Source: Allacma fusca
Lineage: Eukaryota > Arthropoda > Collembola > Symphypleona > Sminthuridae
DNA length: 64,000 bases
Direction: 5' to 3'
NCBI GenBank assembly: GCA_947179485.1
Contig: OX359246.1
Location: 7,254,001 to 7,318,000 of the forward strand
Shown: one piece after another, positions 1-56,097 of the stretch
How the letters are laid out: each line of letters begins with the position of its first letter
How positions within the stretch are numbered: position 1 is the stretch's first letter
Notes under the pieces: generated by a model
What the model was told of the DNA's origin: nothing
The model's input: the letters and a program-made list of their open reading frames with translations, nothing else
Database searches by the model: none
Position numbers and translations under genes: made by a program

Positions 1-90
1 AAGTGAAAAATTTTCATCCTGTATTTTATTAAAACATTTGGAATCACGTACAATTAATCAAACAATTAAACGAGTAATATTTATTTTCAG

Positions 91-3000
91 GTACATTCCG
101 TAAGTGAAAGAATAAACTACCGTTTCTGCTATATCTAATTACTGATGTGTCTACATAAGATTTCATATGAATTTATTCACGAATTGTTTCAGTTATTTAA
201 TTAGTGTTTAGTAGTGTAAGTTTTTTACAAAAGTGTTTCAATCTTTGATGCTGTCAAGTCGGACTAATTACTTTTATTTTCCATAACGAATTAAAATTTT
301 ACATTCTTTTCGCAGCTTTAGCTATATATGCATATATTGTGTTAAGTCAATCCTATTAATTTATTTTCAGCTGGACTGGGTAAGTGAAAGGACAAATTTA
401 TAATTTCTATTACTGACGCCATTATTAATAAATAACTTCTTGAACAATCCCCATCTAATATCGTGCTACCTTTTTTTGTTAAGTGAGAAGCGTTGAAAAT
501 GTTGAAATGAAAAATTTGAACTCGTTATGGAAGGCACATCATTTCCGATCAGATCGGCGAAGTCAAGAAGTGACCAATTATCTTAAGTTGAAATAAACGT
601 TGAAGGACATGACACGATTTAAATTTATTTATTTAATTTGATATTTTTCGATTTTATAGTTAAGCTATTTCAATACTTTTTGATTATAGATACATACATA
701 TATCTTGCTTCACTTTTATCCAATCTATTGAATGCAGTGAGCTTTTGGAAAACCCATTGGATTTAGCTATTAACCGTTCAATTTTATTTTGAAAATTTGA
801 GAAATTATGCAAAAACTAAAAATCAGTTTTTTAAAAAATTACTGCCTTCGCTCCATTTCCTTTGAGGACTATAACCAGAGTATTTGAGCCGAGAGGGGAG
901 GGAACAAGTTTTAGAAAATCTGATCAAAATTTTGCTACGTACTTGGGGAATAATTAAACATTTGTTTTTACAATTCGGATAAGCATAATAATGTTCGGAT
1001 CGAGGTTCTTGCAAATGAATAACTATATGACTACGGATGCAAAATTGTATGACATGAATTTGGGAGTTGAGTGCTGTATAGAGCATTGCGAAAATAGTCC
1101 GTTTGGTATAACAAATATTTAACTGTAGGGATTTTTTGAAAATTGCCCTTTAGCCTATTATTTTTAACCAGATTATTGGCCACTAAAATTTGAGCAGAAT
1201 TTGGAAGCACGTCTAAGACCTATGTTACTCGAGTTATCTCTTGCGAAAAGCATTTACTGGGAACTCCTGTCCTTACACATGTTGCACTTTGCACTAATAT
1301 ACATAAATTATTAATATGATGGGGTTTTGTATTTAAAACAAGTCCGTGTACTATTTTCTTGTATTTATTTACAGGTTTGATAAATTGTGTTACTGGTAAG
1401 TGTGGATTCCTTCCTACTAGAAATTTTGCTTTGAAATCATTCTCAAAAACGTGTGCAGTAAGCTTAAAAGCAGGGTTGGGAAGTTGCAAGAAATGGCCTA
1501 GTCATTATTAAGTAAAATCCGGTTCTAACCGGCCTGGGCCTGTTGAGCAGGTTGGTAAATATAAAATGACAAGAATTATTCCAATCAAAATAAATCCACT
1601 GTCCAGTCAAATCAGGTTGTTACCATTTCTTGCCACTGGCTTGGCCTTTATTGACAAACCTCGGTTTTTCGAACCCTCCTCAAAAGCTCAAAGTGTGCTT
1701 GTGGGAACACAAATTTTCCAAGATATTGCAATTTGGATGTACGAGACCAGCAGTATAGTACATCTATTAAAATTTAATGGCAACCAGTTCAATTATTCTT
1801 TGTTACGTTCTGTAAAACAAATTATTTTTTACAATAAATGTACGCACAAACAAATCCCATCTGAATTATTTGATTTTCTGCAGAAACCCACAATCTTAAA
1901 TATTTAAGTTGAATACATTTAAGCAACAAATTGAAAAATATATACTTTTAGGCTTTGTATACATTTGAACTATTTTTTTGGTTTACAATTTAGGTATCTC
2001 GAACCCTGAAGGTATGTAAAAAATCTTTTATGAATATGCCATTGTAATAGATATTATATTTACTTACATACATACTTAATTACATACATATTATTTTATA
2101 AAACTTATATAAATACCGGGAGTTACTACCCGAAGTTGAGTTAAACGATCAAGTTAAAAATTGGCCGGCTCAAATTGCATTGACCGATGATTACTTATAG
2201 AAAATTGTATCAAGTCTATGTAGTAAGTGTAGTCAGGGATCCTCGCTTGAAAATCATAAATTTTTCAAGAAATTTTGTTTTGTTGCTCTCAGGGACGGGA
2301 AGGGTCTTGAATACGAATACTTTTTTAAACGTTGAGATACGAAGGAAACACTTGACAAAGAGCTTTGTAAGGTCGAAAGAAATTCGAATTTTTTTCGGAT
2401 ACTAATTCCGATTCCGATTCCAATGCTTTTCTTTAAACCCATTTTTTGGGTATTGTAAGTATCCAATTTCAAAAATTCTTTTTAAATTCCTATTCTAATA
2501 TCATTTATCTATTTGTCTATATTTACAACTAATCAATGCAACTATTTATTTACATACAATCCTTGTACAAAGTTTTTGGGGCACTGTGAAATTCAGATTC
2601 CGATTCCCGTCCCTGGTTGCTCTATAAAATCTGGAATAGCCGTTTGAAAATTATGGATTTTGATCGAAAACAGGGATTGCATCCCTGAATCAGAGACTGT
2701 TAAAAACCTCTGGTCAAGAGACACTTATTGCAGGATTAGAACCCCTGAATTTTGTCTACAATATTCTCAATAGTGAGATATATCTGTAAATAACAATATA
2801 ATGTAATTTTGAAAACTTTATTTCCGTTTTAGTCCGTTATGATTTTGTAACCACAGGTGAGTTTATTTCTTGCATGAAGCTAAACTTGAATAAATTCCTT
2901 ATATAATTATATAAAATGAGACCCGATTGTTATTGAGATGTTGTAACATCTAATGAAGTGTAAATATTCATGCAGAAAATATTTTTGAAAGGAAATCAAA

Positions 3001-6000
3001 ATTCATTAAACTTTGTTTTATTAGGTTCACTAGTTGCGCAATACGGTAGGTTCCTTAGGGAGTTTCTTAAGAATAATAATTCCAAGGTGTGCTGAATAAA
3101 TAAACCCGTGCTTATCATGCCTACAAAAACCCTGTACATTTGTCAGTCCAATACCCGAATTTTGGAACCATACATTTCTGGACCCGAATCCGTTCCTGTG
3201 CACAAATATTTGGTTGAACAAGATGTTTCTCCTGAACATCTTGTTTGTCTTTTTTTGTTATTAGAAGATTAATTCAGATTTCTCTTCAGCTTTCCCTAAC
3301 CCATTTCCCCTGACCTCGATTAGGTTTTTGCGTTTGTCCATAAGAATTGAGAGCAAGGTTGGGGAAATTCAGCTTCAAGTGTGAAATTGAGGCAGGTGCG
3401 GCCCAGAAAAAATTTCGGATGTGCGTACTCATTTTCCATGATTCTCTTGCGTTATTAAAAATAATTCTGAACACTTTAATGGTCACTAATGGGTATTTAT
3501 TTGATTCTATTATTATTTCCCAGTTCAAAAATTGAATCTAGCAATACGGAACTAAGATTGTGAAATAAGATTTAAACAAGTATTATTTACTTTTATTGCA
3601 ACTCTGTGTACCAATATTTATCAATTTTCTTTTGCATTTCTGGCTCCGAAACTGCAATTTTCTATTTTCATGAACACCAGAAGACTATGAAAGACCAGAA
3701 TTCCTTTATAGGTTCTTGAAGCACAGTTTCCCCATCCATGCTCCATACTTTTATAGACCATAGTCACAAAGCTCAACCGAGCGTCTTAAAGACCTAATAG
3801 CTCAGAAAACGTTCATATATTTTTTTTGCCAACTGGTGTATTTTTCTGCAAAATACTTTTTTCAAATAATTTTATATTAACTAAACATTTGTATACCATC
3901 AGAGATCGTCGACTGTCATGTTTTGATGAAATCAGATTTAAACTAGAGCGTATTTAGCTCTATCAACTGTTGTTAATTGATAGTAGGTACATTTGTACAT
4001 ATGTATATCGTGGTTACATTAACTACATTTTATAGTGTATTTTCAAAATTCCCTAGTAATATGAATAATGGTGTGGCGCAAGATCCGCATTGCTTTCACT
4101 TTATTGACATTGTGAGGAACACTTGTGCATATTTGAGTGGGAAATATTTTTGTGAGGGAATATTTCCAAGGATGGAGGGGTTGTCTTAGGAGGGATTAAA
4201 TCCCGAGGCAATATTACCAGAGGGATTGTGTCGGAGGGAATATGTCTCATATATATATATATATATATATGAATGAAAACATGATGAAGTTGTAAACCTA
4301 ATAATTTTAATGTTTACAGTTGACGAAAAGACCCTAGGTAATGTTCAGGGATTTTTTTCAATTTGTAGAAGTCTGCTAACCTTAAATCTTAAATCCCTAC
4401 AAACTATTGATTAAAAATTGACATCCATTCTTGATAATTCAAAATAAATTTGCCGTCAAATTTGTAGTATTGATTTCCAATCCCCCTCATTTTGGTAAAG
4501 TTTTAACTGTGCTTTTGTACATGACTCGTTAAAATGCTAATATTTTCATGTTGATTACAGCTTCAACCATGGTTCCAGTTCGTGGTAATTTATTCCAAAT
4601 ATTTACATTTTAAGGAGCTAATTATTATAAAACTACGGTGCTTATAAGGTGCTCGTTCAAATTTAGAAGGAAACTCGTTATGATTCATGCGTCCAGTTTA
4701 TCAATTACTCTTCACCATGAAGCATCAATAATTTTTGTAACTTTCATTCAATGTTGTCAGTGACAGCTTATATTTGCTCTCAGAAGGTATCTTGGTAACT
4801 CTAGCATGACGAAAGCTGAATTGCAGTGTGTGCTTAGATGTTTACATGTTTTTGTTTACCAATTTTGAAGGTTAACTAAAATTTACACTATCTCCTTCTA
4901 TTTTACCCTCCTTTTACGAGATAGCCTCCCCTGGGACGTCCAGTGTAAAAAAAATGTAGGGCCAGGGTAACAAAATTTTTAACTATAGGGCCCCCAAATT
5001 GCATATGAAAAGGTCAAACCTATTTTGAGGGTTAGGGCCAGGGTAAAAATTATTTTAATAATCCACCCCTGTCTACTTGCATATTATAATGTGAGCATGG
5101 AACAAAAATTAAATTATTTTTTAAAATCGAAATTTTGGTTTTAAAATCAACTTGACTCTAATAATTATTATTAATTTTACAGGTACGGGGTTGAACTCGA
5201 TCTCTTGCAGGGGTATGTTAACGATATACACAGATATGTTTACTCACTGTATTTTAATTACACCGGGGGAAAATATATTGTAATAACAATCAATTAAATT
5301 TTTTGGCGGGTACAAGTTTTGAGTAAACATATTTCTAAAATTCTAACTAACAACTTAAGAATGATCACATGGAATTTCGAATCGTGAGTCATAATAATAA
5401 TTATTATTGTTGTCTCCCGAGTAAAAATCGAAGGCATTTTTAGGCCTAATTATGCTTTGCGCTAGGGCAGTTTCATCTGTGCATAAACATAATCACCTAA
5501 TTAAGGCGAAAAATAATAATGAAAAGTTTATGCATATAAAATATGTCCTGAAAATAGCTAATAAAAATGAATAATTTATTTTCTAGATAATATTAAAACT
5601 CTACACTTTTAATCAATTTCAACGATATTTGGTAACTTACAAAGATGGGATATTTGTTTGTCTTCGTCTCTGAAAGCTAAGTATTTAGACAAATTCAATT
5701 CAGTACATCGTTTCAAACTAACACTGGCGCTAATATTTACGATTCTAATAACAGATCAATTTGATGTCGCTATGTAGTTAATTTTTGATACAAGTAAAAA
5801 CAGTTTTGTCTTGCTATTATTTTGAGTTATTACTAGAAACCCCTTTAGGACAAAAAGATTTTGACCCATTTCAACAATACTGTCGCAGGTAATACTTTGC
5901 TTTACCACTGTAAAAATTAATCCTTTGTACAAGGCTTTAACATAAATTGCGGCACGTTTCACTCCTTGTGTTTGCAATTCGTCCAACATTTTTGTTTCTT

Positions 6001-9000
6001 CGCTATTAATGAAGTATTCTTTGGTAGTACCAGTGAGTACAAAATCTTGAATTCTGTAAGCCGATTGAAAGTATGTTGCCCCATGTATTAAGTAATTATA
6101 GAAATCAAGTGCAGGGCCACCAGCAGGTGACAAGATTTGCTGGGAAATTTTCTGCAAGGCGTACTTGCTGGCTAACTTACTAGCAATTTCAGGCCCCACA
6201 TTTTTAGTCCCATTAATCATTTTTAGGATGATTCCATTTTGATGTTCAAATTGAAATGTTGAATATGACCACAAAGGTCCCCAGTTCTTAACATTTTCTG
6301 CTGCATGCAAGCTTAAGTGAAGGTTAAATGTGTAAAATCGTTGCCCGTACAACCCATTCACAGCAGTTGAAAAATCAATAAGTAGACGCTTTGCTTTGAC
6401 AATGTTATGATCTGAAATGGATTCTTGTAACAACAAACACATTGCTTGACGAAATTTGCCAAAGTGAGTTAAATATTGTTTGGGTAAAATATTTTTTAAA
6501 ATGAGCGGAAAAACCAACAACCAAATTTTCCACTCGCTTGCTTTCCAATAATTAATTTCCGAAATGGGTCGTAATTTTCTACTCAAGTTCGAAGGCACTG
6601 ATATCAATTTGCACTTTTCACTTACAATTCTTGACCTTTTCCCGACATAATAACTTTTTGATGAATTACTAGAGTCAAACCATGAGAGTGTAAAGTACTT
6701 AACTACGCCAAGTAAAGCGGAGTGCATATAATCATATACGACACCGTTGACAATATCAAAATGTTTCAACTTTAAAAATTGGGAAGCTTCAAAGACTCCA
6801 CGATGTGATTTTGTGACTACATTTTTGTTCAGGTTTGCTTGAATATTCCGTAGACTCTCAACGTAAGTTAATTTTGACCGTTTTTCATGAGGAGTCTTGC
6901 AATAGGGCATAACTATCTTGTGACTTTTATCGGTCAACCATAAAGTTTCCCCTGGATGCAAACACCACGGGCAGCTAAAGGATCCATTATGCTGAATCAT
7001 TTCCAATACACTGCTTCTTGCCGGAGAATCACATACGACAATTGGAAAAAAGATCTTGCTGATAGTAGGGCGTCCGTCATTCATCCATTTAATTCCGTTT
7101 TGTTGCAATAAATTAAACTGATTTATAATATGGTGTAAATATGTTGTAAAATTTGGCTTTTGGTTCCCAAACCAAAGAGCGCAAACAATAGAAAATTTGC
7201 GCCTCAAAGAATACGACAATTCATTTATAGAAATTATTACAGGCCATATTTGAAATCTAGAGGATTTAAAAACCGAAATTCCATCTGTATTGACAACGCA
7301 TGAAAAACTGGATTCCTGAAGTTGCAATTTTTTATATAACTCTCCATCACAAATGTCGCTGTGGAAATTTTCTTGACCATTCTTTTGCCTTTCTCTCAAA
7401 TAGGATTGTACAGTAGGATTCTCTAGCACTGCACCAAAACATGACTTTACATCGAACACAAAAAAGTAGTTACTATTGTCATGTTGTATTTGGTCACTTG
7501 TTTCACAGGATAAGCAGTAATACTTATTTGCAACTAGTCCTAGGTATTTCTTGCATGTTATACAAAAATAGTGTCGAATACCGATGTTTCCTTCCAAGTT
7601 CAGTACCTTTTTGAGCATGTAAGTTGAAGCCGAAAAATTAACGTTTTTCGGGACATGGAAATTGATTAATTCATGAAGATCTTCAGTTCCCTTTTTAGAC
7701 AACTTGTACCGTTGAGCAAATGCTAAAATGAGAATGTGACTCTCGGACGATGACAATTTTGATCCCGTGTAGAGTTCCTCCTGTAAATATAAATTACAAG
7801 TAAAGTAATAATAGCTGCACCAGTGTATTTTTTGTATACCGTAATTTAAGTTAACAGAAAAGTAGACACTGACTAACGTAATCGGAAATGGGAGAGCCGC
7901 TCTCGGAACTTTCTGAACAATCATCTTCAATTTCAGAATCCGCGTAAATTTCATTTTTATCATCGTCAAACTGTTCATCTTCAGCGTTTGATAACGCTTG
8001 GGTCTGCTAAATTTAGCACGCAAAATAATTAATCCATGCACAAAATACCATACTTAATATGTGCATATGTTACATTACTAATTATTACTTGTAGAATAAT
8101 GGCATCATCATATGCGTCACAATTTTCTTGCTGTTCCATTTCAATTTTTATACGGCGTGATGGTGATTGAAAATTACTTCCTACTGTTTTCTGCAAAAGA
8201 AGATTTGGTTTTAATACATATACATTTCATTATTCTTTTTATTTGAATTTTGGAATATTATTGTCTTTCAAATACTTAACCTTGAGTAATCTACTCCTGG
8301 ACCTTGCTGGTAAACCCTGCAAGGGTTGCGGCGAAGTTACATATTGTTTATAACGACCCATACTAAACAACAATAATTATTGCAATTATGTATTGATTGC
8401 TGTTTCCTTCATTCATTGACATGAATGAAATTCCCCAGCCAATTACGCTTATTTGCATACTAAATTCTGCGCCGTCTCCCGCGTAAGAAATACAAAGAAG
8501 CGGAGTCCCTGTATTTCGTTCGCTGGTCTAGACTTGATGGAATGCTTGGAACTCTTACTCTTGGTCCGTTGAAATTTTTGTTAATTGTAATCAAATACTT
8601 TTAAAATGTATTTGCTAGTTTGTTGGTTTAAAGATGTGCCAAAAACTTGGTCAGTGATTTCGAGTGACGTTCTTGCTGATGGAACAAAACGGAAATCAAA
8701 GTCCTTAGTTGGGAAGGTAGTCAACGTTCAATGGAAATCAAAAATCCATCCAGCCGAAGTTGTTGCTGCAGGTAAATAGTGTTATAACGTTTGCAAAATT
8801 TTAATTATCAATTTTATCACAGATTTTATCAGTTAAATAAATATAATATTTTATTCTAGGTGAGGATGACGATGTGCTCAATTGTCAAGCTGATGAATTG
8901 GCAAAACAAGAATTCGAAAAGGCCGATGCTGAACCAGGTGAAGTTAATGTTACTATTGCTGATTAAAATTGGCACTTAAGATTCATTTGTTAATTGTTTA

Positions 9001-12000
9001 CATGTTGTCACTCAATTTTTCAGTTAGAAAATATTCAAAACCATCCACTGTAAAGACAGCTTCAAAAAATCATCAATTTGCATCGGCATCTGTCCACAAA
9101 AAGTTCTGTTCGTAAATAGTTGCCCTAATTTAGTAGTTTTTACCTTTTTACCAATATTGTACTGATGCCATTACAAATATTTTAAATTCTAGGCAAACGA
9201 AATACGCTTTGTGAGCGAAGCCAGCAAATTAGTTCTGTTCTTGAAGTATTGGAACTAGACGAGGAAACCGGGCAGATACCAACACCAATTTTGAATGATC
9301 CTGGCGTTATTAATGACAGATCGGACAATCTTAAAGATGATGAAACAAACTGGAAAGGTAATATTTACCTTAGATGTCAGTATAACAAAATTTCAATTCA
9401 AATTTCAAGACCTGTATTTTTGTATTTCTTTTAGAGCTGTATGAATCCAGCCGATCTGATTTCAAGGATCTTCGGAAGAAATACAAGGACTTGAAGAGAG
9501 CGCACAAGCTATGTTCTTCGGATGTGAGCAAATTAAATTTTTATGTTGATATTTTAATATTAGTGATTAGCAATATTATATTTTAAATTATTATGTACTT
9601 TTCATTATAACAGGAGGCAGTTGAACTTTTGGCTGGTTCCGGAATTAAACTACTCCAGAGTGAGGTTGCAGCTATGAAGACAATGTCTCCAAGCATCACC
9701 TTCTTTGCCCGCAACTTATTTCGGCGAGTTTTCAAGTCCGAAGAAGTAGTTAATCATTCATTGCTTGCGAGAAAAAGCACGGCTTTGGTAGACCACAATC
9801 CATTACCTGCAGTGGATGTTAAACGTCGGGACGCAGTCATAGGTAATCTGTGCATTTACTAGTTGGCAATGTCTATTAGCTTTTCAGAAACAAACTTTTT
9901 TTGTATTTTTTCTTTTAGAATTTTCTCTGTCAACTTATGGTTTTCAGAAGTCATCTACGGAAGAGCAGCGTCTGGACAAAAATCAGAAGAAGACGAGAAA
10001 AGCTGCAAAATCAAGGATTATCCAATCTCTTTCCGACTTCGTGCGTGAGGAAAATGTAAAATTCAAAAGGGCTTAGACCTAAGTTTCTAAATGTTAACAT
10101 TCATTAAGAATCTTCAATTTGTAATATGACTGCAAAATTAGTGTGTGAATAAATTTGCTACATATGTAAGAATATTATGATTAATAATTTAATTGAAATT
10201 TATTGGCGCCCATTCATTCCTTCATTGCATGAACAATATTTTATGGATAATATTTTATAGATAATATTTTATGAATAATATTTTATGAATAATTTATTTT
10301 GTCTGTTGAAAAAGCACATAAACAAAAGCGGCTATTGATTGTGCAGAAAACTTTAGGTTTAAAATCGGCCAAATATAGCTGCTAACGATTATGCATAAAT
10401 TGCATTGGTTTTTATGTATAAATTGCAGTAACATTTTTACTCGGGCTATACTTCCGTAGGTTATTCTATTATAGCCGGTAAGTTATAATAGTAACATCTT
10501 GACCTCTAAAACATCAAATACGTGATTTAATTTAAATTAACCAAATTTAATGTGTTTCAGGTTTTGACAAGACTTCGATTGCGTCAAGTATGTACACTTT
10601 GCCGTTATACATGATGAATTAAGCTTTTATATTTAGTATTAATAGTCAGCGAGGTTTTGTAGACAATCTAGTCCTTTGAAAATAATTGGCAAGAACCTGT
10701 CAGTTAATGTTGTCCGACTGTTGTCCCAACTACTTTCCTACTACATATGTACATTCATAACAGTGGTGAAAAAATATAAAATATACTTGTTAATAATTTA
10801 TTTCAATAATTTATTTCGATAATTATTTCATTTAGTCCCATACAGCTCTGAATGTACGTTACAAATTATTTATTTTAATATCTACCTTATATTTGTATGC
10901 AACAGTAATTATATTTTTTCTTAAATTTTCAACTTTTGAAAAAAATTCGTTTTCGTAAAAAACGAAAAGCGTAGATATTACTCACTCCTCCTGAAAAAAA
11001 GATGTCAGGATAACTTCTACACCCTTTGACCAAATTCGAATATTAAGGGCTTAAAGTCAATGCCGGAATTTGTATAACGTCCATTGCTTAACTTACCTCT
11101 TCAGCATGTATAGTTTACGAGATCTGAAGCTGTTTATACACAAGCTTTCCCGTGAGTCTACGGAATTGCCTATCCTAAAAATACATTGCAGTTTTTTAAA
11201 AGGTGTTCCCCACAATTATTTTTATAAAAATGTGTATATGTATCTGCCTAATTATTGCAAGCTAGTGTCAAATCTTATGATGTGATCACAAGAGCTTGGA
11301 CCCTTAAAAATTAATTGTTCAAAAATGAAAATTATGGTTGTCATAACCAAAACCTTCAATATTCGAAACGTAACTTGAAGTCATTCAAATATAATCAACT
11401 AATTAAATTATTTGAACTTCATGAAAATTTTAATACTATCATAATATGGACTCATAAAATCAAGAAAAGTTTGAAAACAATTGAATAAAAAATAAGGATT
11501 TAAAAAACCAAAATGAAGATGCTTTTACGGCCCTAAAAAGTGAAAAACTGGTATTTTATATGGGAGAAATTAGACCAATAATGAACGAAACAAAGCATCT
11601 CGGATGCAAACACATACGTATACATAATATTATTCAGTAGCACTTGAGATGCTTTATTTTGTTCATTATTGCTCTAATTCCTCCCATATCAAATGCTAGT
11701 TTTTCACTTTTTAGAGTCGTAAAAGCATCTTCGTTTTGGTTTTTTTAAAACCTATTTTTTTTTGTATTTATATGATTACATTCTGTATCCCTTAATTTGG
11801 ACGATTGCAAAAATTAGAGAAGCAATAATATTACAGGAAGTGTAAATTTATTCAAAACTTCCGCCACACAATACTCTCGGTGTCGCAGCTTTCAGCACCC
11901 TCAATATTTTAAATATGAAATAACATATAACATTGTAGCACTCATGGCTGTCATTTCAGGTGCTGCAAGTTCTGTGCGTCTGTTTGGTGAGGACAATAAA

Positions 12001-12450
12001 TCATTAAAATACCATAATTATTATAACTTACCTTCGAAATTGGTAAATGTGATTCAGTCCCGGGGGAAATTTCTCCTGATGATTTGAACCAACACACAAA
12101 ATTATTAATTCATGAGTTGAAATGTTTTGTCATGTATATTAATCCCATGACTTCTGCAAATGTTCTCATTTCAGCCAATTCTGCTCTTCCAAGTTCGTAA
12201 ATTTTTACCTTACGCAATTCTCTTGAAGTAGCATTAGGTGAATGCATGGGTTATAATAATAACTCACATTTAAAATTTAATACCACACCATTGCTCTGAT
12301 TATTTTAAAACATTTCAGTGACAGTGGTTTTCGGTAAGTCAATGACCCCATTTCTTTGACACAAATAACAAATTCTGTATGTTGTCTAAAAGAATAAATT
12401 TTTTTGTACTAAAACTTGTGTTTATTTGCATTTCAGACCTTGTAAGCTAG
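91..12450 (+). CDS. Micro-exon gene, 3' part (14 tiny phase-1 exons)
   Basis: I do not recognise the product. Exons: 91-99, 371-379, 1375-1395, 1994-2011, 2833-2856, 3025-3045, 4320-4337, 4561-4584, 5183-5212, 10561-10587, 11960-11986, 12175-12192, 12319-12333 and terminal 12437-12450. Each follows a T-rich AG acceptor and precedes a GT donor (GTAAGT, GTATGT, GTGAGT and similar; 12193 is a weak GTTCGT). Internal exons are 9-30 nt, every one a multiple of three, and every junction is phase 1. Joined, they give one open frame of about 90 codons ending in TAG at 12448-12450; at least exons 3, 5, 6 and 7 would contain stops in frame 0, so the phase is forced. The peptide is rich in S/T/V/G with two cysteines (in LINCVTG and SISCRG) and looks beta-rich and extracellular, which is inference. 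The window starts AAGTGAAAAA, like bases 3 onward of the first two donors, so more exons probably lie upstream. Confidence 0.72.
4930..5290 (+). repeat. Segment holding micro-exon 9, duplicated at 12840-13125
   Basis: The intron sequence before exon 5183-5212, the exon itself and about 70 bp after it recur as a diverged direct copy at 12840-13125. Both contain GGGCCAGGGTAAAAATTA, a run like CCACCCCTGT, the exon and then a block ending CGGGGGAAAATATA. This is direct evidence that micro-exons here spread by duplication with their flanking introns. Confidence 0.8.
5416..5428 (+). repeat. Left terminal inverted repeat of CACTA-like element
   Basis: CCCGAGTAAAAAT; exact complement at 10433-10445. 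Confidence 0.85.
5756..8361 (-). CDS. CACTA/EnSpm-like transposase, 4 exons
   Basis: DDE-type transposase expected to cut and join the ends of the surrounding element. Exons in transcription order: 8361-8281, 8190-8089, 8003-7878 and 7780-5756, all phase 0, 777 residues. The ATG at 8361 (MGRYKQYVTS) is the first in the joined frame. Reading 5756-8041 as one frame instead would translate the intron 7877-7781 and lose the acidic N-terminus (about residues 65-103). Order of parts: basic start, acidic stretch, helical segment from EELYTGSK, a zinc-binding pair (CITC and CLSC, about 176-195), then the catalytic core with NTDGISVFKS (D269), the hydrophobic QIWPVII strand, CDSPARS (D354) and CPWC (373-376), and a helical C-terminal half. 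The NTDG/CDSPAR pattern is that of animal Tnp2/EnSpm-type transposases. I see no internal stop, so it may be active. The glutamate of the triad cannot be assigned by eye. Confidence 0.82.
8362..8605. promoter_or_regulatory. Divergent spacer between transposase and BEN gene
   Basis: 244 bp separates the two start codons of oppositely transcribed genes, so both promoters must lie here or within the first exons. No clear TATA box or known operator could be assigned. It is GC-richer than its surroundings (for example CTGCGCCGTCTCCCGCG near 8467). Confidence 0.4.
8606..10076 (+). CDS. BEN-domain protein of the CACTA-like element, 7 exons
   Basis: Likely DNA-binding partner of the transposase. Exons: 8606-8771, 8860-8937, 9024 to about 9107 or 9111, 9193-9357, 9435-9523, 9614-9842, 9919-10076. 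The start MYLLVCWFKD and Trp-rich exon 1 resemble the N-terminal module often found ahead of BEN domains. Exon 6 and the start of exon 7 form the BEN domain: helical residues around SPSITFFARNLFRRVF, then SEEVVNHSLL and the stretch to DAVIG. Exon 5 is a basic coiled coil. The end is basic (KKTRKAAKSR), stop at 10074-10076. Exon 3 to 4 is uncertain: the canonical donor GTAAAT at 9112 gives a stop in exon 4, while a poorer GTTCGT donor at 9108 keeps the frame. That may mean decay or an unusual donor. Confidence 0.68.
10433..10445 (-). repeat. Right terminal inverted repeat of CACTA-like element
   Basis: ATTTTTACTCGGG; exact complement of 5416-5428. Confidence 0.85.
11488..11764. mobile_element. 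Long-hairpin MITE-like element
   Basis: Two arms of about 118-125 bp (11488-11605 and 11640-11764) are inverted copies with some mismatches around a short loop; both contain GATGCTTTTACG and its complement, and AAAAAGTGAAAAACT and its complement. No coding capacity. It lies in the intron between micro-exons 10 and 11. Confidence 0.75.
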
Positions 12451-12663
12451 AGGGGAACCGGTTCCAATGAAGCCAACGTATTGCCAAGCATGGCTTCCTT
12501 TAACGAATTATCTAAAAAAAAGTCGTCTGCAACGACAGTTTTTTATTAACGATTTTTTTTTCATTTTTGCTCATATCCGTTCATTCATGTATGAAAATGC
12601 TTATGATTGAATGCTTATAACGTTTTTGGTTATAAATAGTTATTTCCCACATGTATATATTAA

Positions 12664-12669
12664 AATAAA
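12664..12669 (+). promoter_or_regulatory. Candidate polyadenylation signal of the micro-exon gene
   Basis: AATAAA lies 214 bp after the stop codon of the terminal micro-exon, in an AT-rich stretch with further AATAAA-like words. It is the first convincing hexamer downstream, but AT-rich DNA gives such words by chance. Confidence 0.35.
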
Positions 12670-12839: not shown

Positions 12840-13125
12840 CCCTTATAGACTGCTTGTGTAAAGGCAAAATCTATTTTGAGGACTTGGGCCAGGGTAAAAA
12901 TTATTTTGTTAATCCACCCCTGTATACTTCTATATTATGTTGTGAGCATGAGTAAAAATGTAATTATTTTAAAAAATCAAACCTTCGTATTAAAATCCAC
13001 TGTACTGCAAATTAATAATAATATTACAGGCACGTGTTGAACGGAGTCTTTTTGCAGGGGTACATGTGTTAACGATATCTGGTTGCTCTTAGTATTTAAT
13101 TACATCGGGGGAAAATATAAAGGAA
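12840..13125 (+). pseudogene. Degenerate copy of micro-exon 9 with its introns
   Basis: This is a copy of 4930-5290 downstream of the terminal exon. The exon-like part, 13030-13059, keeps the 30-nt length, the AG acceptor and a GT donor, but in phase 1 it has TGA as its third codon. It therefore cannot serve in the frame of the gene and is best read as a dead duplicate exon. Confidence 0.65.
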
Positions 13126-49701: not shown

Positions 49702-50479
49702 TCATAAAAAAGGGTATCCAAAGCTAACTACTAGTATATGATGTTCACTTTGGAAGAAAAACAAGATGAGTTTAGTTCGTATAACCTCCTCACCCTGTAC
49801 AATAGTCTGCTCAAGCTCCACACCCAATTTCAAGGAGATTCTCAAAGATCCTTGTAAGCGGATTAGTTGTTCTAATAATTTTTTCAGGGGTTCAAAGAGC
49901 CTACTAAACACGTCATCAATATGTACAATATCTTCTGCTGTAAAATGATGGACATACGAGATTATAGCTCCATGATGAGACCTGCTGAATTCTCTAAAGA
50001 CGGACAAATCTAGTCGTTGTTGTTGTTGTTGAGGAGGAGGGGGAGGTGGAGTTTCTGCGGCAGTCTCACTGGATGTGGAGGCGATGACGATATTCTCCGC
50101 CGGAGGCGCCTCTACTTCTCCGCCATCCCCAACTTGATTGGTCTCTTCTCGACTACGACATACATGGACTCGAATATCAAGGCAATACAGCTGGCACAAG
50201 GGGCAAAAATGTTCCGCCAAAATATGTCTGTCATATGGAATTTTGTTACGGCAGTAGAATGGGCAGTTGGGCACAGAGCAATGAAAAACCTACGCCCGAG
50301 AGAAAATACGAAAATAATTATTTTAAAATATCGTAACAGTTTTTTAATAAAAATGCCTTCACAAATAAATTAGCCTGCCTACGGTATAATTCAAACAACA
50401 TACTTACGTAATTAAATCTACCGGAGACAGTTGCACGTGGGTACTCTGTCCCAGAAAAGTCACCATCATCATCGGCCAT
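49702..50479 (-). CDS. Zinc-finger-like protein of the element, 2 exons
   Basis: Exons 50479-50408 and 50289-49702 (phase 0, intron 118 bp with GTAAGT donor), 219 residues. Start MADDDGDFSG at 50479 precedes an acidic tip. Exon 2 opens with a Cys/His cluster (HCSVPNCPFYC, then HFCPLCQLYC and VHVC), consistent with one or two zinc fingers. A proline/glutamine low-complexity linker follows, then a helical stretch with leucine heptads (FEPLKKLLEQLIRLQG). It probably binds nucleic acid or a partner protein; many Polinton-type elements have a small finger protein, but I cannot assign an orthologue. The last 20 residues may belong to an unseen third exon instead. Confidence 0.6.
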
Positions 50480-50509
50480 TTTGGAAAAGAAACGCGAATT
50501 TCAAATAAA

Positions 50510-50743
50510 TCACAAGTTATCGACGATTTCGTCATGGCCATCGGCAGTTCCGCACAGAGTAGTACGCCGACGCTGTTTTCTCATTGTCCCGTCGCATTGT
50601 CGTGCTACAAGTTTTTCTTGTAAAACCCAGAACGACTTTATCGCAACTTGCATTGCCATCATGGCACACAAAATGTACAGCACTGCAAATATTATAATAT
50701 AATGTTGTGTAATATCAGTTGGTTCACTAAAACTCAAACGCAA
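50510..50743 (-). CDS. Possible small membrane protein
   Basis: An open frame with one strong hydrophobic helix (HYIIIFAVLYILCAM) followed by a basic tail (MRKQRRRTT). There is no ATG before the helix; the frame could be an exon after the AG at 50722, but I found no donor to pair with it. The gene would fit between its two neighbours without overlap. Not recognised. Confidence 0.3.
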   Translation of the reverse strand: MRLSFSEPTDITQHYIIIFAVLYILCAMMAMQVAIKSFWVLQEKLVARQCDGTMRKQRRRTTLCGTADGHDEIVDNL

Positions 50744-50792
50744 GCTTCATTCACAATTGTGTGATAGCAATAATAAATAACAATAATTATTA

Positions 50793-52169
50793 TTATTGTA
50801 GTGCGTTACTTTTATTAGTAAATTCCAAGCAATTTCCAACCTCTTCAAACTTGGATCGCTCTGACTGCTCCTGCTTCTTTTGCCACTGCTTGGAATCACA
50901 CAATGTAGTAATAATTTTTCTTTCCAGGTTATTAACCTCGACTTTGGGGTGTGTAGTGTGTAAAATGACGTCGTCGCCCAAGTAGTCGTGGTCGTCGTGA
51001 GAAAGGCAATGAAGCAACAAATGAAATGTTTTTACTAAAGATTTTTCACTCTCAAGTATTTCAAATATAAATTCATTGGCTGCTTTGGAAGCCAGGCTGC
51101 TTAAATAGTTTTTCACAATTAAATCCTCAGCTGAAATTTCGACGGAGCTAGTCGAATTTTTTGTCCCGAAAGTTACACCACTGTTATTTGAAACGGCTGA
51201 TGATGATGATGACGATGATGGGGAGATGATCGAAGTGCGTGAAACCAAGGTGGTGGTAGACGGAAACACAAACTGGAGGCAGAGCACAAAGTAAAGTCGG
51301 TGTAATTTCTTCATTTCTCGAAAGAATATTCACAGCGTATGTATTGTACTGGCCAAGAGATGTGCGAATACTAAAGTAAATCCCAAGCCTTAGCGACTTC
51401 TTATGCTTGTAATTTTCCTCTCCTTCCTTGATTTGGGCAAAGTTTTTTGCGGATAATTCCGCACCTTCCGCCACTCTACAGCAACACTACTTTGTTTCCT
51501 CTTTGTCTCTCTTGCTATATTACGTTTACGGCGTAGTCGTACTACACTGTTCGTACCTTTCCCTTTCGTTGATTTATTGAATAATTGTGCTGCTTGGTAT
51601 TCAATCGGACGCCAATGTTTTATTGCACTGTTTTTTTCCTCCGTCGTATTTTCTACAGCCTGTGGTAAGGTGGTGGTGGAGGGTGTGGATGCCAAAATTC
51701 TGCTTTTGTCTGCTCGCTGTTGAGATACGGCCTCTCCACAAATTTCCTCAGGGGACTGAGACTCAGTAGTAGTCTTCCCAGCTCCCACGCCTCCTCCTCC
51801 TCCTCCCATCAACTTTACGTTCTCACGCTCATCCTCGACCTCCTCCTCGATTTTCGAAGAACCAGGATTCTTCTTTGCACTTTGAAGTTTTTGCTTTTCA
51901 GTCACAGCTTTAGTAGGAGTATCTTTCCCCTTCGTACTCGTACTCGTAGTCGACCCTTCGTCATTCGAGAATGATTTATTGGTTGGTTGCTCGCTATGAG
52001 TTTTGCTGTTCTCGACGTTAGTCTGCACATCCGCAGTTGTTTCTGCCGGCTGTTTTTTGTTTTGTTTTACTACTGTACTCCGTTGTTGTTCGTTGTACAT
52101 ATTCAAGAGTTTAAAATATAATTCTGGTGGCATGACCTTATATATATTAATTGCCTGACTATCCTCCAT
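50793..52169 (-). CDS. Unrecognised element protein, probably 2 exons
   Basis: Exon 1 from ATG 52169 (MEDSQAINIYKVMPPELYFK) to 51465, then a probable intron 51464-51273 (GTGCGG donor, CTGCCTCCAG acceptor, phase 0), and exon 2 to the stop at 50793; 394 residues. N-terminal 30 residues are helical, then a long low-complexity charged Ser/Thr/Lys region with a Gly run, a basic patch RLRRKRN, and a helical C-terminal domain after SAEDLIVKNYL. The start overlaps the preceding gene by 11 bp. Alternatively exon 2 is a separate gene from ATG 51314 with a signal-like start (MKKLHRLYFVLCLQF). No family recognised. Confidence 0.5.
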
Positions 52170-52644
52170 CGCCGTCAACAGAAAAGCCCAACATGCACTC
52201 TACATTAAAAATACACTTGTATACTGTAGCCAAGACAGCTCTTACAGTTTTTTCTTCTCTCAACAATACTTGTATGAGGGACTGCTGCTGCTTCTGTTGC
52301 GATTTGGATCTTCTGATGACGACAACGTTGTCTCCACCACCACCCGAAGATAGTTCCCTACACCGACACAATCCTCGGAAAATATATTGTAAGCGCCTGT
52401 TTGTAGCACTTGATAATGGACTCGTTAAAAATACGTCTAGGTTACAAAATAGATCGCACAATGCCAACAACGTTTCATTTGACGCTTCTTTAATTAATGT
52501 TTCGTAGTTGAGTTTGTTTGGAGCCAGCAATATTTCGTACAAATGCTCGCATTGTGTTTCCAATCTTGAACGCTCTACTTGCATCTCATTTGTCGTGAAT
52601 TTCGGAAGTGGGAAGTTTGGCGGGAAAACGTTATTTTGGACCAT
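52159..52644 (-). CDS. Small helical virion-associated-type protein
   Basis: 161 residues from ATG 52644, which lies 14 bp before the end of the ATPase gene; the upstream TTG-started frame is only the overlap. Mid-part is helical and leucine-rich (YETLIKEASNETLLALCDL), followed by a Gly-rich turn, a basic KSQQKQQQ segment and a last hydrophobic helix (VLATVYKCIFN). The order, helical repressor-like block then basic linker then hydrophobic end, is like that of a small protein regularly encoded beside capsid genes in F54H12.2-type elements. That link is from memory and is inference. Confidence 0.55.
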   Translation of the reverse strand: MVQNNVFPPNFPLPKFTTNEMQVERSRLETQCEHLYEILLAPNKLNYETLIKEASNETLLALCDLFCNLDVFLTSPLSSATNRRLQYIFRGLCRCRELSSGGGGDNVVVIRRSKSQQKQQQSLIQVLLREEKTVRAVLATVYKCIFNVECMLGFSVDGDGG

Positions 52645-53287
52645 ATACCTCACAGGTTTCGTCGGACAAAAAGAGGTTATTCCGAGCAAAGTATCGAAAC
52701 CGTCGGTGGTGGGGGTGGAAGTCTAACATGAGGTAGCTAAAGTCTCTGGATTTAAGTGCGCGGTCATAGGCTGCTCTAATAAATGCAGTGTCATCAGGGC
52801 ACACTTGACTTGCAATGTAGCGTATGATCCGCTTATCACGGTTGAAGGGAAAGAGAAATAGTATTTGTGTATTAAGTACGCTGTCTCGTATGGTGGAAAC
52901 AAAAGGCTGTTGTAGGATTACAGCAACACACACCTTGCGATGATGGGAGATTTTTGTAAATAAATTGTTCACTAACTCAGATAGCTCACAGCGTTTTTTT
53001 AAAGCCGAGAGTTGATCGTCCACAACTACAAACGAATTTGCGCTAATTTGTGCTTCAGTAAGCGAAGTTACAAAAGACACTTGCGGGTCATTAAGTTGAA
53101 AATCTGTAAACTCGTCTTGAATATAATCACATAGATAAATCACCTTGTCTATACGTTCCGTAAATATTTCGTCTCGCCTTCGAATTAATTCCAACACCAT
53201 ACGGGTCTTCCCGGTCATTGATTGACCATATATCTGGATCGTTGATGGAACCGGGATTTGACACGGAATGCTATTCTCATAATCCAT
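52631..53287 (-). CDS. FtsK/HerA-type genome-packaging ATPase
   Basis: Expected to drive DNA into the capsid. 218 residues from ATG 53287 (MDYENSIPCQ); the longer frame upstream lacks conserved features. Walker A is GQSMTGKT (21-28), Walker B is FVVVDD (about 86-91), followed by an LQQPF segment after a helix, the place of the sensor residues, and RDKRIIRYIASQV, a basic stretch conserved in this family. Single exon, no break. The stop overlaps the start of the next gene. A typical small ATPase of Polinton-like elements; a herpes- or NCLDV-type enzyme would be longer. Confidence 0.85.
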   Translation of the reverse strand: MDYENSIPCQIPVPSTIQIYGQSMTGKTRMVLELIRRRDEIFTERIDKVIYLCDYIQDEFTDFQLNDPQVSFVTSLTEAQISANSFVVVDDQLSALKKRCELSELVNNLFTKISHHRKVCVAVILQQPFVSTIRDSVLNTQILFLFPFNRDKRIIRYIASQVCPDDTAFIRAAYDRALKSRDFSYLMLDFHPHHRRFRYFARNNLFLSDETCEVYGPK

Positions 53288-53449
53288 AGACGTATGGGAA
53301 AAAAACGATGAACTGGAAACGGAACAAAGAAAGAAAGAAAGAACGAAAATTTGTGTGTGCACAAATGAGAGTACACTAGCCCACTGGTATACCATCACCA
53401 TTTACAACCCGTTTTTATTCATTTTTTTCTTTTTTAATTTCAATAATTG

Positions 53450-54106
53450 TTAACGTAAACAAGAAGAATACCCATTACTATATGTTCTACATAGACATTT
53501 TGCTTTATTTATTTGTAAATTGTTTGCCTTATCATAAATGCCATAGGGATTAAATCCATTAATGTTTTTTACAAAATTTGTAACCACGAAATCATTACGT
53601 CGTGTATTTCTACCAAACCTACGGAGGAATTTTTCAAAACTTTGCCCCAAGCCCATACAATAGAGGAATAAAATACAATAGAATCCACAGGCATTACTGG
53701 AGCCACTTTGCAAAGTTTTGCAGTTTTCGTTGCCAATTCGAAGGAAGGTGGGTAGTTCCACGTGTTTATAAGTGTCAATTGATTGACCAAATGAATCCAA
53801 ATAATAGCACTTGACTCGGGATATAATGTACAAAGCAATCCAATGCTCGCCTAAAATTAGACATGTAACAATTACACACATGCGATATTAGGTAGCTTTT
53901 AATGAAGCAAAATTTGCATAATTATTATTACTCTATGTACCAGGTTCAAAGCTTCTGGATGTGTTTATAATTACGGCTGTGGGAAATTTTGTGATGCAAC
54001 CAACGACTTCTTCAACTCTGTCCGCAGCACACACCACAATCGGTATATCAAGGCATTTCGAATTGTAAAGTACATGCAAGCCACGTTCCAAGCTCGACGT
54101 ATTCAT
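53450..54106 (-). CDS. Adenain-like cysteine protease, 2 exons
   Basis: Maturation protease of the virion. Exons 54106-53941 and 53850-53450 (90-bp intron, phase 1), 188 residues from ATG 54106. Catalytic set: His58 (in EHWIALY), Asp74 (LDSFG), Gln103 and Cys110 (LQSGSSNACGFYC); the 7-residue distance from Gln to Cys equals that of adenovirus protease. The single-exon frame would miss the first third, which supplies the strand before the His. It is placed between ATPase and major capsid, as is common in this group. No damage seen, so it may be functional. Likely substrate: the GG-rich core protein at 55701-56096. Confidence 0.88.
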
Positions 54107-54198
54107 CTTTTTTTTTTGTATCGAATGAAAGATTCGGGGAGGCGGAGGAGGAGTAGGTCACTGCTCTGCTGTTGCTGATGCTGATGCTGCTTGTAAAT

Positions 54199-55671
54199 CT
54201 AATCTGTTGTAATGTTCCGAGCCTTATCAATTTCGATACAGGTTTGGCCGAGTAAAAACATTATCACGGTGATATTTTCCGTCAGAGCCTGAGAGAACCT
54301 CAGGGAAATTTTGCATTGGCCCGCCTTATTTACCGACAACGAATTTGAAGATAATGGCAGCAGTTCTATGCACGTAAAGGCATAGCCTGTAAACAATCCA
54401 CACAAAAAATAGTTTATTATTTAGAGTTATTGTTTTAAATTATTACGAGTTTTTTTGTTTTGTTTATGGTAATTGGTTATGTAAATATTGGTAGTTTTTT
54501 TAGGTTTTTTACCGTCTCTCCACCTATCCGATGTGATGCCGTTTCCAACAATTTGCGAAGCAGCCAGTCGCCTCAACGACCTGAGGGCGAATGTGAAATC
54601 AAGACATCCTGCGGTCCCATTTTGGAATTCATACGTGAATTCCCTCTGCTCGATCGTGTCGTTGTTCCACGAAAAGTTTATACTGGAAATGTTCTTGTGC
54701 TCAAAATTAAAAGCACTGGCTGACAGTTTGCCCAGGTAGGCTGCCGTAGAGACAAATCCAACAATTATACACTTTGGTATTCGAGGTAGGATTATAGAGT
54801 CAGATATGTAGCTAGACAGTCCCGAGGCTATGTTAATGCATTTTAGTTCTGTCGTCGGACAGGGAAATTTAAAGGACTTCCCCTCATTGAGCATTTTACG
54901 ATGGAAATCAAGAACTCCTCGGGAAACGACTTTCCGGCTGATATACAAGGTGGCCTCGTTAATCACGACGGTATAGGGACAACCGGATATTCCAGTCTTG
55001 GAATCACTTTTGGAATCCAGGCAAAATTCAGGAATTGATCGGCGTAAAATGAGTTTGAGTTCGACGCTGGCTGGTAAATAGCGCGTCTGCATCAGTAAAT
55101 TGGCAATTATATTTCCCGTGACAACAAACTGCTGTGAATTTTTGACAATATTATATCTCTTTTGATAGCCACCGTCTGTAGGGACGTAGGCATTGAATTT
55201 ATCGTCTGGGTAGTAGAACGAATCTTGCAATTTGCCAGATTTCTCCTGTGGCGAGCTGCACAGAACCTTGTGCACGTATGCCAGGTGTGGGTAGTTATTG
55301 TAAGAGTCGGACACTTGGACGTTGTTTAAAAATAACTGGACGTTGGAAAACAATGCGTCAAAGAATAGATTTGTAGGGCAGACGTCATCATTTGCATCGC
55401 AAACGTTTCCATTGCTTTGCACAATCTTGGCCTTGATTTTCAAAAAGCTATCCGCCAAATCAAAGTAGCTCTGCCCATCTCCCGAAACGACAAACTGGAT
55501 TGGCTGGTAGTTGTCTGAAATAGACTCTATGGGGTAAAAAGGAATGTAATCTGTACTGTTTAACGTGGAAATGTCTGTTGGGTAATTCGCAAAGGGCAAT
55601 AGTTCACTTCGAATAGATTCAGTAGACCCACTGAATACAGTGGGATCCCCCTCAAATATTGTTGATTCCAT
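54199..55671 (-). CDS. Major capsid protein, F54H12.2 type, 2 exons
   Basis: Double jelly-roll shell protein. Exons 55671-54513 and 54386-54199 (126-bp intron, phase 1), 448 residues. Start MESTIFEGDP at 55671; the frame can be read 15 codons further up but overlaps the core gene there. N-terminal part: IQFVVSGDGQSYFDLADSFL, the first strand block typical of F54H12.2 homologues, then NLFFDALFSNVQLFLN. C-terminal part: GNGITSDRW at the end of exon 1 and, in exon 2, GYAFTCIEL, then ISLRFSQAL and CIEIDKARNI, the conserved ending of the family. The exon-2 match is what proves the intron: without it the protein would end in a basic low-complexity tail. Open throughout. Confidence 0.9.
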
Positions 55672-55700
55672 GTTATTAATGGCGACTGAGACTGCTGTTA

Positions 55701-56096
55701 TTATTTTCGTGCACAATTTCTCCTCACACCCGCTGTCCTCCTCCTACGTCTTGCCCCACCAATTTGCATGGGCCTCTGCCTTTTAGTCCGTCTTCGTCTT
55801 CGTCCACCTACTTGCGTTTTTCGTTTTCTCACCCTACCACCAGTTTGTCTCCTCCGACGCCGACTTCCAGAGGCGGATTGCTTCCGGGATTGGGTTAGTG
55901 GGACCAGATAAGAAGAACTTTCTGTTGAAAGTCCATTTCCGCCTCCCATTGTTGTCATGCCAACTCCAGTATCATATCGCCCCCCAACTTGGTAGTCAAT
56001 ATTATCGTCACCACTGTTGTTTTCGTCAAACTTGGAGCGCCGGGGCGGGGCCAGAGTACAAGCCTCTTCGTCGTCTTTGCACACAACTTCTCTCAT
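55701..56096 (-). CDS. Arg-rich core (DNA-condensing) protein with GG cleavage sites
   Basis: 131 residues from ATG 56096, two bases after the minor capsid stop; ends at 55701, before the major capsid start. N-terminal third is acidic to neutral (CKDDEEACTL), the C-terminal half is very basic (RRRRRQTGGRVRKRKTQ and beyond). It holds four matches to the adenovirus-protease consensus (M/I/L/N/Q)-X-G-G: QVGG in DYQVGGRY, QTGG, a second QVGG, and QIGG. Cleavage there would release short Arg-rich peptides, as with adenovirus core proteins. This fits a DNA-condensing core precursor. The protease is encoded two genes downstream. Confidence 0.72.
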   Translation of the reverse strand: MREVVCKDDEEACTLAPPRRSKFDENNSGDDNIDYQVGGRYDTGVGMTTMGGGNGLSTESSSYLVPLTQSRKQSASGSRRRRRQTGGRVRKRKTQVGGRRRRRTKRQRPMQIGGARRRRRTAGVRRNCARK

Positions 56097-56097
56097 T

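Follow-up and report, generated by a model that had tools for sequence, protein, structure and literature searches.

A gene of 26 exons, most of them micro-exons, in the springtail Allacma fusca, with a probably fast-evolving mature chain

Exon structure of the window gene

A 64-kb stretch of Allacma fusca DNA (hereafter the window, to whose positions all coordinates refer) carries, on the sequence evidence, the 3' portion of a genuine gene with 26 exons, most of which are 9-30 nt long and start at codon position 2. We designate this window gene G, and its relatives in the same genome A, B and C. A partial A. fusca database protein without a name (P0001, 142 aa) holds, in order, all 14 short segments that a sequence-only reading had joined into a micro-exon gene, together with one further exon at 10460-10477. 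With this exon (exon 21) included, the window part of G is identical to P0001 at 94 of 96 residues, and the spliced model of G matches 140 of the 142 residues; both differences (L/I and A/S) fall in exon 17. The features of the window are listed below.

91..99, + strand: exon 12, 9 nt, first G exon within the window (splice borders, P0001)
371..379, + strand: exon 13, 9 nt (splice borders, P0001)
1375..1395, + strand: exon 14, 21 nt, LINCVT (P0001; counterpart in A, B)
1994..2011, + strand: exon 15, 18 nt (P0001; counterpart in A, B, C)
2833..2856, + strand: exon 16, 24 nt (P0001; counterpart in A, B)
3025..3045, + strand: exon 17, 21 nt, 18 nt in B (P0001)
4320..4337, + strand: exon 18, 18 nt (P0001; counterpart in A, B)
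4561..4584, + strand: exon 19, 24 nt, 30 nt in B (P0001)
5183..5212, + strand: exon 20, 30 nt, TGLNSISCR (P0001; counterpart in A, B)
5416..10445, strand not assigned: DNA transposon, 5030 bp, in intron 20
10460..10477, + strand: exon 21, 18 nt, YSIIA, outside the 14 segments (P0001; counterpart in A, B, C)
10561..10587, + strand: exon 22, 27 nt (P0001; counterpart in A, B, C)
10836..10853, + strand: candidate extra, perhaps cassette, exon, 18 nt, open in phase 1 (splice-like borders)
11960..11986, + strand: exon 23, 27 nt (P0001; counterpart in A, B, C)
12175..12192, + strand: exon 24, 18 nt, 21 nt in A, B and C (P0001)
12319..12333, + strand: exon 25, 15 nt (P0001; counterpart in A, B, C)
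12437..12450, + strand: exon 26, terminal, 14 nt, stop TAG at 12448-12450 (P0001; counterpart in B, C)
12664..12669, + strand: first of three AATAAA polyadenylation-like signals, the others at 12692 and 12713
12851..13119, + strand: degenerate second copy of the exon-20 segment, past the gene end (76% to 5000-5277)

Exon 13 and its flanks resemble exon 12 at 79% over a 38-nt stretch. The exon copy within 12851-13119 carries an in-frame TGA, as read by eye. The candidate at 10836-10853 is absent from P0001; relative A has a similar candidate, and B and C have a 24-nt exon at the equivalent place.

Followed upstream in the same genome, G acquires 11 further exons and comprises 591 nt (196 aa), open over 55.7 kb. 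Every one of the 26 exons is open and has plausible splice sites, and 24 of them measure 9-33 nt. Codon position 2 is the start of 23 of the 24 internal exons, which are also multiples of three. Six upstream exons were located through matching to P0001 and exon 5 through back-translation of its first residues; the exon bearing these residues is absent from the 30 kb adjoining the window and was found 31 kb upstream. The first exon was identified in relatives B and C, and later in G.

The sequence-only reading was right, yet understated. It gave only three junctions, the ends 91 and 12450 and the count of 14; the remaining segments were reconstructed from the sequence, and we infer from that reconstruction which exon it had omitted. 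As it had described, AG...GT borders enclose the 13 non-terminal segments, which are all multiples of three (9-30 nt), and an AG acceptor precedes the terminal one; all are open in a single phase up to the TAG. It had remarked that in several exons frame 0 is stopped where phase 1 is open; stops occur in 7 of the 14 internal window exons in frame 0, in 4 of the 14 in frame 2 and in none in phase 1. The segments are real, but the gene neither starts at position 91 nor is confined to 14 exons, there being a fifteenth one in the window and the 11 upstream.

The transposon in intron 20 has 13-bp exact terminal inverted repeats and an apparent 2-bp duplication (CT); an ORF on its minus strand matches DUF1258 with a score under the curated cut-off. 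It ends 14 bp before the start of exon 21, and no insert is found at this point of intron 20 in relatives A, B and C. Intron 20 is 5.2 kb long, and the intron between exons 5 and 6 reaches 29,301 nt. The contig of P0001 measures only 19,012 bp, whereas the same residues span 43.6 kb in G, so that its copy must lack at least 24 kb of G's span.

The predicted protein

Exons 1-3 of G (71, 41 and 33 nt) encode a putative prepro part. It starts like a signal peptide, continues with an acidic segment that contains an NIT sequon, and then has NRVKR, the furin-like RVKR site lying in exon 3. An upstream first exon with a putative signal peptide, as predicted by the sequence-only reading, was thereby found. 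The following 23 exons of 9-30 nt encode nearly the whole mature chain of about 150 aa, with few cysteines. Protein starts are hydrophobic in G, B and C; the signal peptide and the furin site were called by eye, with hydropathy computed for the starts of B and C only. The G protein is thus predicted to be secreted and cleaved at RVKR.

Residue propensities lean to strands and not to helices in three of three proteins, and AlphaFold2 run on P0001 alone gave a mean pLDDT of 36.5. Searches of Pfam, NCBIfam and PDB sequences with P0001 returned nothing usable; the best PDB match, ribosomal protein S3 (E = 1), was rejected.

Relatives and exon turnover

A cluster located about 3.6 Mb from G in the same genome contains the three relatives, with the layout of G. 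Relative B is open (27 exons, 208 aa), as is the shorter relative C (20 exons, 158 aa); exons of 6-36 nt hold 76% and 68% of their coding sequence, respectively. Exons 1-5 and the last exon were not found in relative A, which is truncated and may be a pseudogene. When the genome was searched for the promoter plus first exon, in a way that would miss divergent members, at least six matches came up: G, B, C, a copy of the 5' end of C, another piece lying upstream of this copy, and a piece of A's promoter.

Counterpart exons in A, B or C retain the phase and splice borders and, in nearly every case, the length as well. What differs between gene copies, as seen in DNA, is the presence of whole exons, or exon length by multiples of three. 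A 15-nt exon (eY) is present in B and C, and has no usable borders in G and A. In relative C no counterpart was found to exons 11, 14 and 16-20, nor to one of exons 12 and 13, and relative A has three 9-nt exons of a single type. Exon 11 of G, without counterpart in A, B and C, was left out of all comparisons. The family found here is small, and its copies include open, shortened and truncated ones, so that each gain or loss of an exon can be traced individually.

Rates of change

In some pairs the mature exons appear, from pN/pS, to change faster at amino-acid-altering than at silent sites. The mature pN/pS ratio (with codon-bootstrap ranges) is 1.95 (1.20-3.74) for G-A, 1.49 (1.11-2.15) for A-B, 1.38 (1.00-2.08) for B-C and 1.28 (0.96-1.78) for G-B, and is near 1 for the other pairs (G-C 1.01, A-C 1.11). 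The prepro part gives 0.47 (0.21-1.03) for G-B and 0.45 (0.21-0.98) for G-C, but 1.01 for B-C; the contrast between prepro and mature parts thus rests on the pairs with G, and positive selection is not seen in every pair. For these ratios exon 3 was trimmed to its first 17 nt in pairs with G, codons interrupted by introns were excluded, and rows of unequal length were dropped (mature part: G-B 3/21, G-C 1/14, G-A 1/16, A-B 2/16, A-C 0/9, B-C 0/16).

Intron pseudo-codons given the same treatment yielded 0.80-0.81 in four pairs. The observed value was reached in 6 (G-A), 7 (A-B), 37 (G-B) and 110 (B-C) of 2000 pseudo-codon draws each, where the pseudo-codons overlap in three frames and the gene pairs share branches and hence are not independent. 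Compared with their own intron flanks, ungapped exons clearly exceed these only in G-B (14/16) and A-B (13/14), the result not being clear in G-A (9/15) and B-C (7/12); here the dropped rows of unequal length were 1 of 16 shared exons in G-A, 3 of 19 in G-B, 2 of 16 in A-B and 0 of 12 in B-C. The ungapped exons stand in place of a free-gap alignment, in which exon identity came out too high.

Interpretation and alternative explanations

Taken as one claim, and leaving aside its role, the anatomy of G, its prepro organization and the fast evolution of its mature chain are in our view probable. As nearly all exons are symmetric and in one phase, exons could be gained, lost, duplicated or lengthened without damage to the frame, and nonsynonymous changes would build up within the mature exons. 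We tentatively propose that same-phase micro-exon chains are a repeatedly evolved device for fast-changing secreted proteins, arising in springtails independently of aphids and flukes. The three larger exons would form the prepro part and the 23 exons of 9-30 nt a diversifying mature chain, whose variety would come from substitution and from frame-preserving gain, loss and lengthening of exons, perhaps with skipping.

It is rather unlikely that the variety comes mainly from alternative splicing, an idea raised by the sequence-only reading, with symmetric micro-exons being skipped and one gene giving many peptides, as proposed for schistosome micro-exon genes (MEGs). The shared phase and the lengths in multiples of three of 23 of 24 internal exons would permit it. 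The candidate at 10836-10853, with splice-like borders common to A and yet absent from P0001, would fit, and the transposon end 14 bp before exon 21 could weaken this exon in the present haplotype. However, P0001, the sole annotated product found, has all 14 segments and exon 21 besides. G might also be a dying gene, with introns of 29.3 and 5.2 kb swollen by inserted elements such as the 5030-bp one, and with transcripts perhaps no longer made; the copy of P0001 does without at least 24 kb of G's span. This we consider improbable, as the frame stays open through all 26 exons, with splice sites that look plausible, and P0001 differs at only 2 of 142 residues.

That splice-like sites in AT-rich DNA were strung together by chance can practically be dismissed. 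Phase alone is weak evidence here. The best phase-1 chain in 1-12500 has 21 candidates, whereas 200 dinucleotide shuffles average 4.05 and never exceed 10. Against the chance argument of the sequence-only reading, phases 0 and 2 yield chains of 18 and 17, respectively, in the same region at that loose cut. A stricter cut leaves a chain of 12, against a shuffle maximum of 5 in phase 1 and 6 in any phase. Only 12 of the 21 candidates in the loose-cut chain coincide exactly with exons of the final model, and six lie inside the transposon. It is P0001 and the same borders in the relatives that settle the point. A very improbable reading makes G a deep-branching member of the aphid bicycle family, dating from an early hexapod. 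Exon phase and micro-exon layout are the same, and the bicycle classifier, applied with the coefficients printed in PMC9168663 (cut-off 0.72), gives logits of 15.5 for G, 18.6 for B and 13.0 for C. Against this kinship, no C.C motif occurs in P0001 or the complete G protein, nor by eye in B and C, although CYC motifs are missing from some true bicycle members. Word-limited protein searches with E up to 10, which would bear on kinship to MEG as well as bicycle proteins, matched P0001 only. The composition leans to strands, and the authors of the classifier report that three outgroups, progressively more basal, yielded no candidates (PMC9168663).

The mature chain presumably meets a changing extracellular partner, such as a food plant, a fungus or microbe, an enemy or a mate. 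By analogy, a salivary or gut effector-like protein ranks first among the possible roles, although tentatively; a defence or antimicrobial protein would be less likely, and a reproductive protein slightly less so again. Gene families that consist almost entirely of micro-exons belong, in the literature drawn on here, to blood flukes and sap-sucking hemipterans, each of which has hosts to manipulate. A free-living springtail with this layout and with signs of positive selection makes it testable whether the micro-exon layout as such allows secreted proteins to evolve fast. In the literature collection searched, no paper contained both "microexon" and "Collembola". Such genes, it seems, escape annotation, since protein searches gave only a fragment of one family gene.

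Comparison with known systems

Many venom and antimicrobial peptides are prepropeptides with a conserved signal and pro part and a variable mature part. G resembles these in its conserved prepro part, basic cleavage site and faster-changing mature part, and differs in that its mature part, of about 150 aa and with few cysteines, is split over 23 exons of 9-30 nt.

In schistosome MEGs, symmetric exons of 6-36 bp account for about 80% of the coding sequence (PMC5825161). The likeness suggested by the sequence-only reading extends to this figure, since 24 of the 26 exons of G, within the same size range, make up 81% of its coding sequence. G further resembles MEGs (PMC5825161, PMC4350168) in its signal-peptide-like first exon, and G and its relatives share with them inserted elements in introns, raised pN/pS and local duplication. 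G differs in belonging to another phylum, in having no sequence similarity found and in its prepro part with a furin-like site.

Bicycle genes, known from aphids, phylloxerids and scale insects, have almost all internal exons beginning at codon position 2, and their fast divergence is ascribed to positive selection (PMC9168663); their proteins are described as helical and saposin-like (PMC13041983). Enrichment in salivary glands is a further mark of bicycle genes. G and its relatives resemble them in the many micro-exons with codon position 2 starts, the signal sequence (signal-peptide-like in G), the fast divergence and the positive score in the structural classifier. In contrast to bicycle genes, G belongs to a springtail and not a hemipteran, lacks the CYC motif and any sequence similarity found, has a furin-like prepro part and a strand-leaning composition, and is accompanied by only a handful of copies found.

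A gene of micro-exons in the window

The sequence-only reading had proposed a chain of 14 micro-exons, all in phase 1, at positions 91-12450, giving three junctions, both ends and the count; the other segments were re-read here from the sequence. All thirteen non-terminal segments have AG...GT borders, are 9-30 nt long and are multiples of three, while the terminal segment has an AG acceptor and ends in TAG. Phase 1 is open in all 14, and the chain was confirmed as described. When proteins were searched with the joined 90-aa peptide, one came back (E = 2.4e-45), here P0001, a 142-aa entry recorded as "unnamed protein product, partial [Allacma fusca]". P0001 contains all 14 segments, bearing out their order, plus an insert encoded by an exon at 10460-10477. 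All 14 exons therefore exist, but the window holds 15. P0001 is identical to the window part of the gene (hereafter G) at 94 of 96 residues, and corresponds to residues 55-196 of the complete G product with an identity of 140/142. At the level of sequence, this agreement proves the exon set of G within the window.

The claim that such a chain exceeds chance stood in part. A micro-exon scan, using splice matrices set by hand without training on the Allacma fusca genome, was compared with 200 dinucleotide shuffles of 1-12500. The phase-1 chain contained 21 candidates at the loose cut (shuffle mean 4.05, maximum 10) and 12 at the stricter cut (shuffle phase-1 maximum 5). In four other 12.5-kb segments, whatever the phase or strand, no chain was longer than 11 (loose) or 5 (strict). 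However, phase 1 was not singled out at the loose cut, where the same region also gave chains of 18 (phase 0) and 17 (phase 2). Of the 21 picks, twelve coincide exactly with exons of the final model, and six lie within a transposon. The scan shows an excess of candidate micro-exons on the strand of G, and does not give the exact exon set.

Structure of the complete gene

Matching to P0001 located six further micro-exons just upstream of the window (-1779 to -2), and the exon encoding its first residues 31 kb upstream. Exons 1 to 4 were located through similarity to relatives of G.

Exons of G on contig OX359246.1 (C8), with the evidence for each
C8 7210730-7210800, + strand: exon 1, similarity to relatives
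C8 7220189-7220229, + strand: exon 2, similarity to relatives
C8 7220558-7220590, + strand: exon 3, similarity to relatives
C8 7221294-7221308, + strand: exon 4, similarity to relatives
C8 7222899-7222919, + strand: exon 5, first residues of P0001
C8 7252221-7253998, + strand: next six exons, P0001 match
within the window, + strand: last 15 exons, P0001 match

In full, the model of G comprises 26 exons spread over 55,721 bp; joined, they make 591 nt that encode 196 aa without an internal stop. Of the 26 exons, 24 measure 9-33 nt, and these carry 81% of the coding sequence; of the 24 internal ones, 23 begin at codon position 2. Because the contig of P0001 is 19,012 bp long and the same stretch in the genome carrying G is about 43.6 kb, the P0001 copy, judging from these two lengths, must lack much of a 29.3-kb intron; an assembly difference may instead account for the discrepancy. 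By eye, part of this intron resembles a retroelement and includes a possible ORF for a membrane protein (3896-7720 of L008, a stretch upstream of the window).

Intron 20 contains a 5030-bp element (5416-10445), a DNA transposon with 13-bp inverted repeats, the sequence at one end being exactly complementary to that at the other. No insert was found at this site in the three relatives, and comparison with one of them (A) suggests a 2-bp duplication, CT. The transposon ends 14 bp ahead of exon 21, so that part of the 3' splice region of this exon is transposon sequence. A minus-strand ORF of the element matches DUF1258 (E 3.1e-6) at 27.3 bits, below the curated cut-off of 33.1; an apparent multi-exon plus-strand gene was seen by eye at about 8607-10075.

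Elsewhere, intron 22 carries a 280-bp near-palindrome (11484-11763, 80% self-complementary, foldback-element-like). A short repeat at 4082-4246 has at least 36 near-full genome copies at 84-85% identity. Past the end of G, 12851-13119 is an old copy of the exon-20 segment with splice-like borders and an in-frame stop. Several long, mutually similar ORFs, mostly on the minus strand, occupy 21105-45169; one matches a ligand-gated channel very weakly (E 0.0081), and the region may be a tandem array of ionotropic-receptor-like genes, some of them broken. A run of minus-strand ORFs at 49702-60267 shows weak matches to an integrase core and to an adenovirus-type protease, and resembles an element of the Polinton/Maverick type.

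Relatives and exon turnover

A DNA search with window positions 1-600 found four more stretches on the minus strand of the same chromosome, near 3.55-3.60 Mb, a region with three relatives of G (A, B and C). B spans 14.6 kb with 27 exons (208 aa, open), two of them absent from the G model; no counterpart of G exon 11 was found in it. C has 20 exons (158 aa, open); no counterpart was found in it for G exons 11, 14, 16-20 and either 12 or 13. A has 16 recognised exons; it may be a pseudogene, since exons 1-7, 9, 11 and the last did not turn up and two of its donors are GC. Searching the whole genome with the promoter and first exon yielded at least six matches, all on C8 at the loci of G or its relatives. 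A 99% copy (1009 bp) of the 5' end of C, comprising promoter and first exon, was seen at 1501-2507 of another stretch (L018), where further exons were not found; it would reflect either a partial duplication of very recent date or an effect of the assembly.

Counterpart exons in the relatives keep phase and splice borders; where their lengths are unequal, the difference is a multiple of three (18/21, 24/30, 21/18, 33/39). B and C have a 15-nt exon at a place where usable borders are missing in G and A. The stretch between exons 22 and 23 holds a 24-nt exon in B and C, versus an 18-nt candidate in G and A. Three 9-nt exons in A are of one type.

Selection on the mature chain

pN/pS was calculated from Nei-Gojobori counts over equal-length exons, with codon bootstrap. 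As control, aligned intron flanks were read as pseudo-codons, overlapping in three frames; their ratio was 0.80-0.81 in the four tested pairs.

Mature-chain pN/pS (bootstrap range), equal-size control draws reaching the observed value, and exons with raw divergence above that of flanks
G-A: 1.95 (1.20-3.74); 6/2000; 9/15, not clear
A-B: 1.49 (1.11-2.15); 7/2000; 13/14, clear
B-C: 1.38 (1.00-2.08); 110/2000; 7/12, not clear
G-B: 1.28 (0.96-1.78); 37/2000; 14/16, clear
A-C: 1.11 (0.77-1.77)
G-C: 1.01 (0.69-1.53)

The observed values used in the control come from the exon-versus-flank comparison (B-C 1.32, G-B 1.27). For the prepro part, the ratio was 0.47 (0.21-1.03) for G-B and 0.45 (0.21-0.98) for G-C, unlike B-C at 1.01 (0.46-2.63). 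The evidence for diversifying selection on the predicted mature chain is good but not overwhelming, because the pairs have branches in common, A is possibly a pseudogene, the ratio is near 1 in two of the six pairs and counts are small.

Predicted product

An upstream first exon with a signal peptide had been anticipated, and exon 1 encodes MQHLTVFFTMAVASVLCGSLGHP, which looks like a signal-peptide start. Exon 2 encodes an acidic stretch with the sequon NIT, and exon 3 HNRVKR, a furin-like site, at whose place NRVQR stands in B and C. The remainder of the product, about 150 residues following the tail of exon 3, comes from 23 exons of 9-30 nt. P0001 matched no family in Pfam or NCBIfam and gave no usable match in PDB; AlphaFold2 on the single sequence returned an unusable model (mean pLDDT 36.5). 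Simple propensities are strand-leaning in P0001, B and C. G probably encodes a secreted prepro-protein of a free-living springtail, its mature chain built from micro-exons; we infer secretion, cleavage and a role outside the cell.

Comparison with known micro-exon families

With its anatomy, its relatives, the exon differences among copies and part of the selection signal established, G is a real, unusual gene and a member of a small family. We found no earlier report of micro-exon genes in springtails in the literature searched; among the literature matches listed, micro-exon gene families are those of schistosomes and aphids. The proposed resemblance to schistosome micro-exon genes (MEGs) holds for the layout by which these are recognised, with symmetric exons of 6-36 nt making up about 80% of the coding sequence. 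For MEGs, PMC4350168 also reports high dN/dS, enrichment in transposons and duplication of genes. The published classifier likewise rates G as a bicycle gene (logit 15.5, with the coefficients of PMC9168663), and G shares the phase of bicycle genes, whose internal exons, according to that paper, begin with codon position 2. It has no CYC motif, and in word-limited protein searches (E up to 10) P0001 was the sole match, with no MEG or bicycle protein. For these two reasons we file G in neither family; as read from its sequence, it is a gene that works like both.
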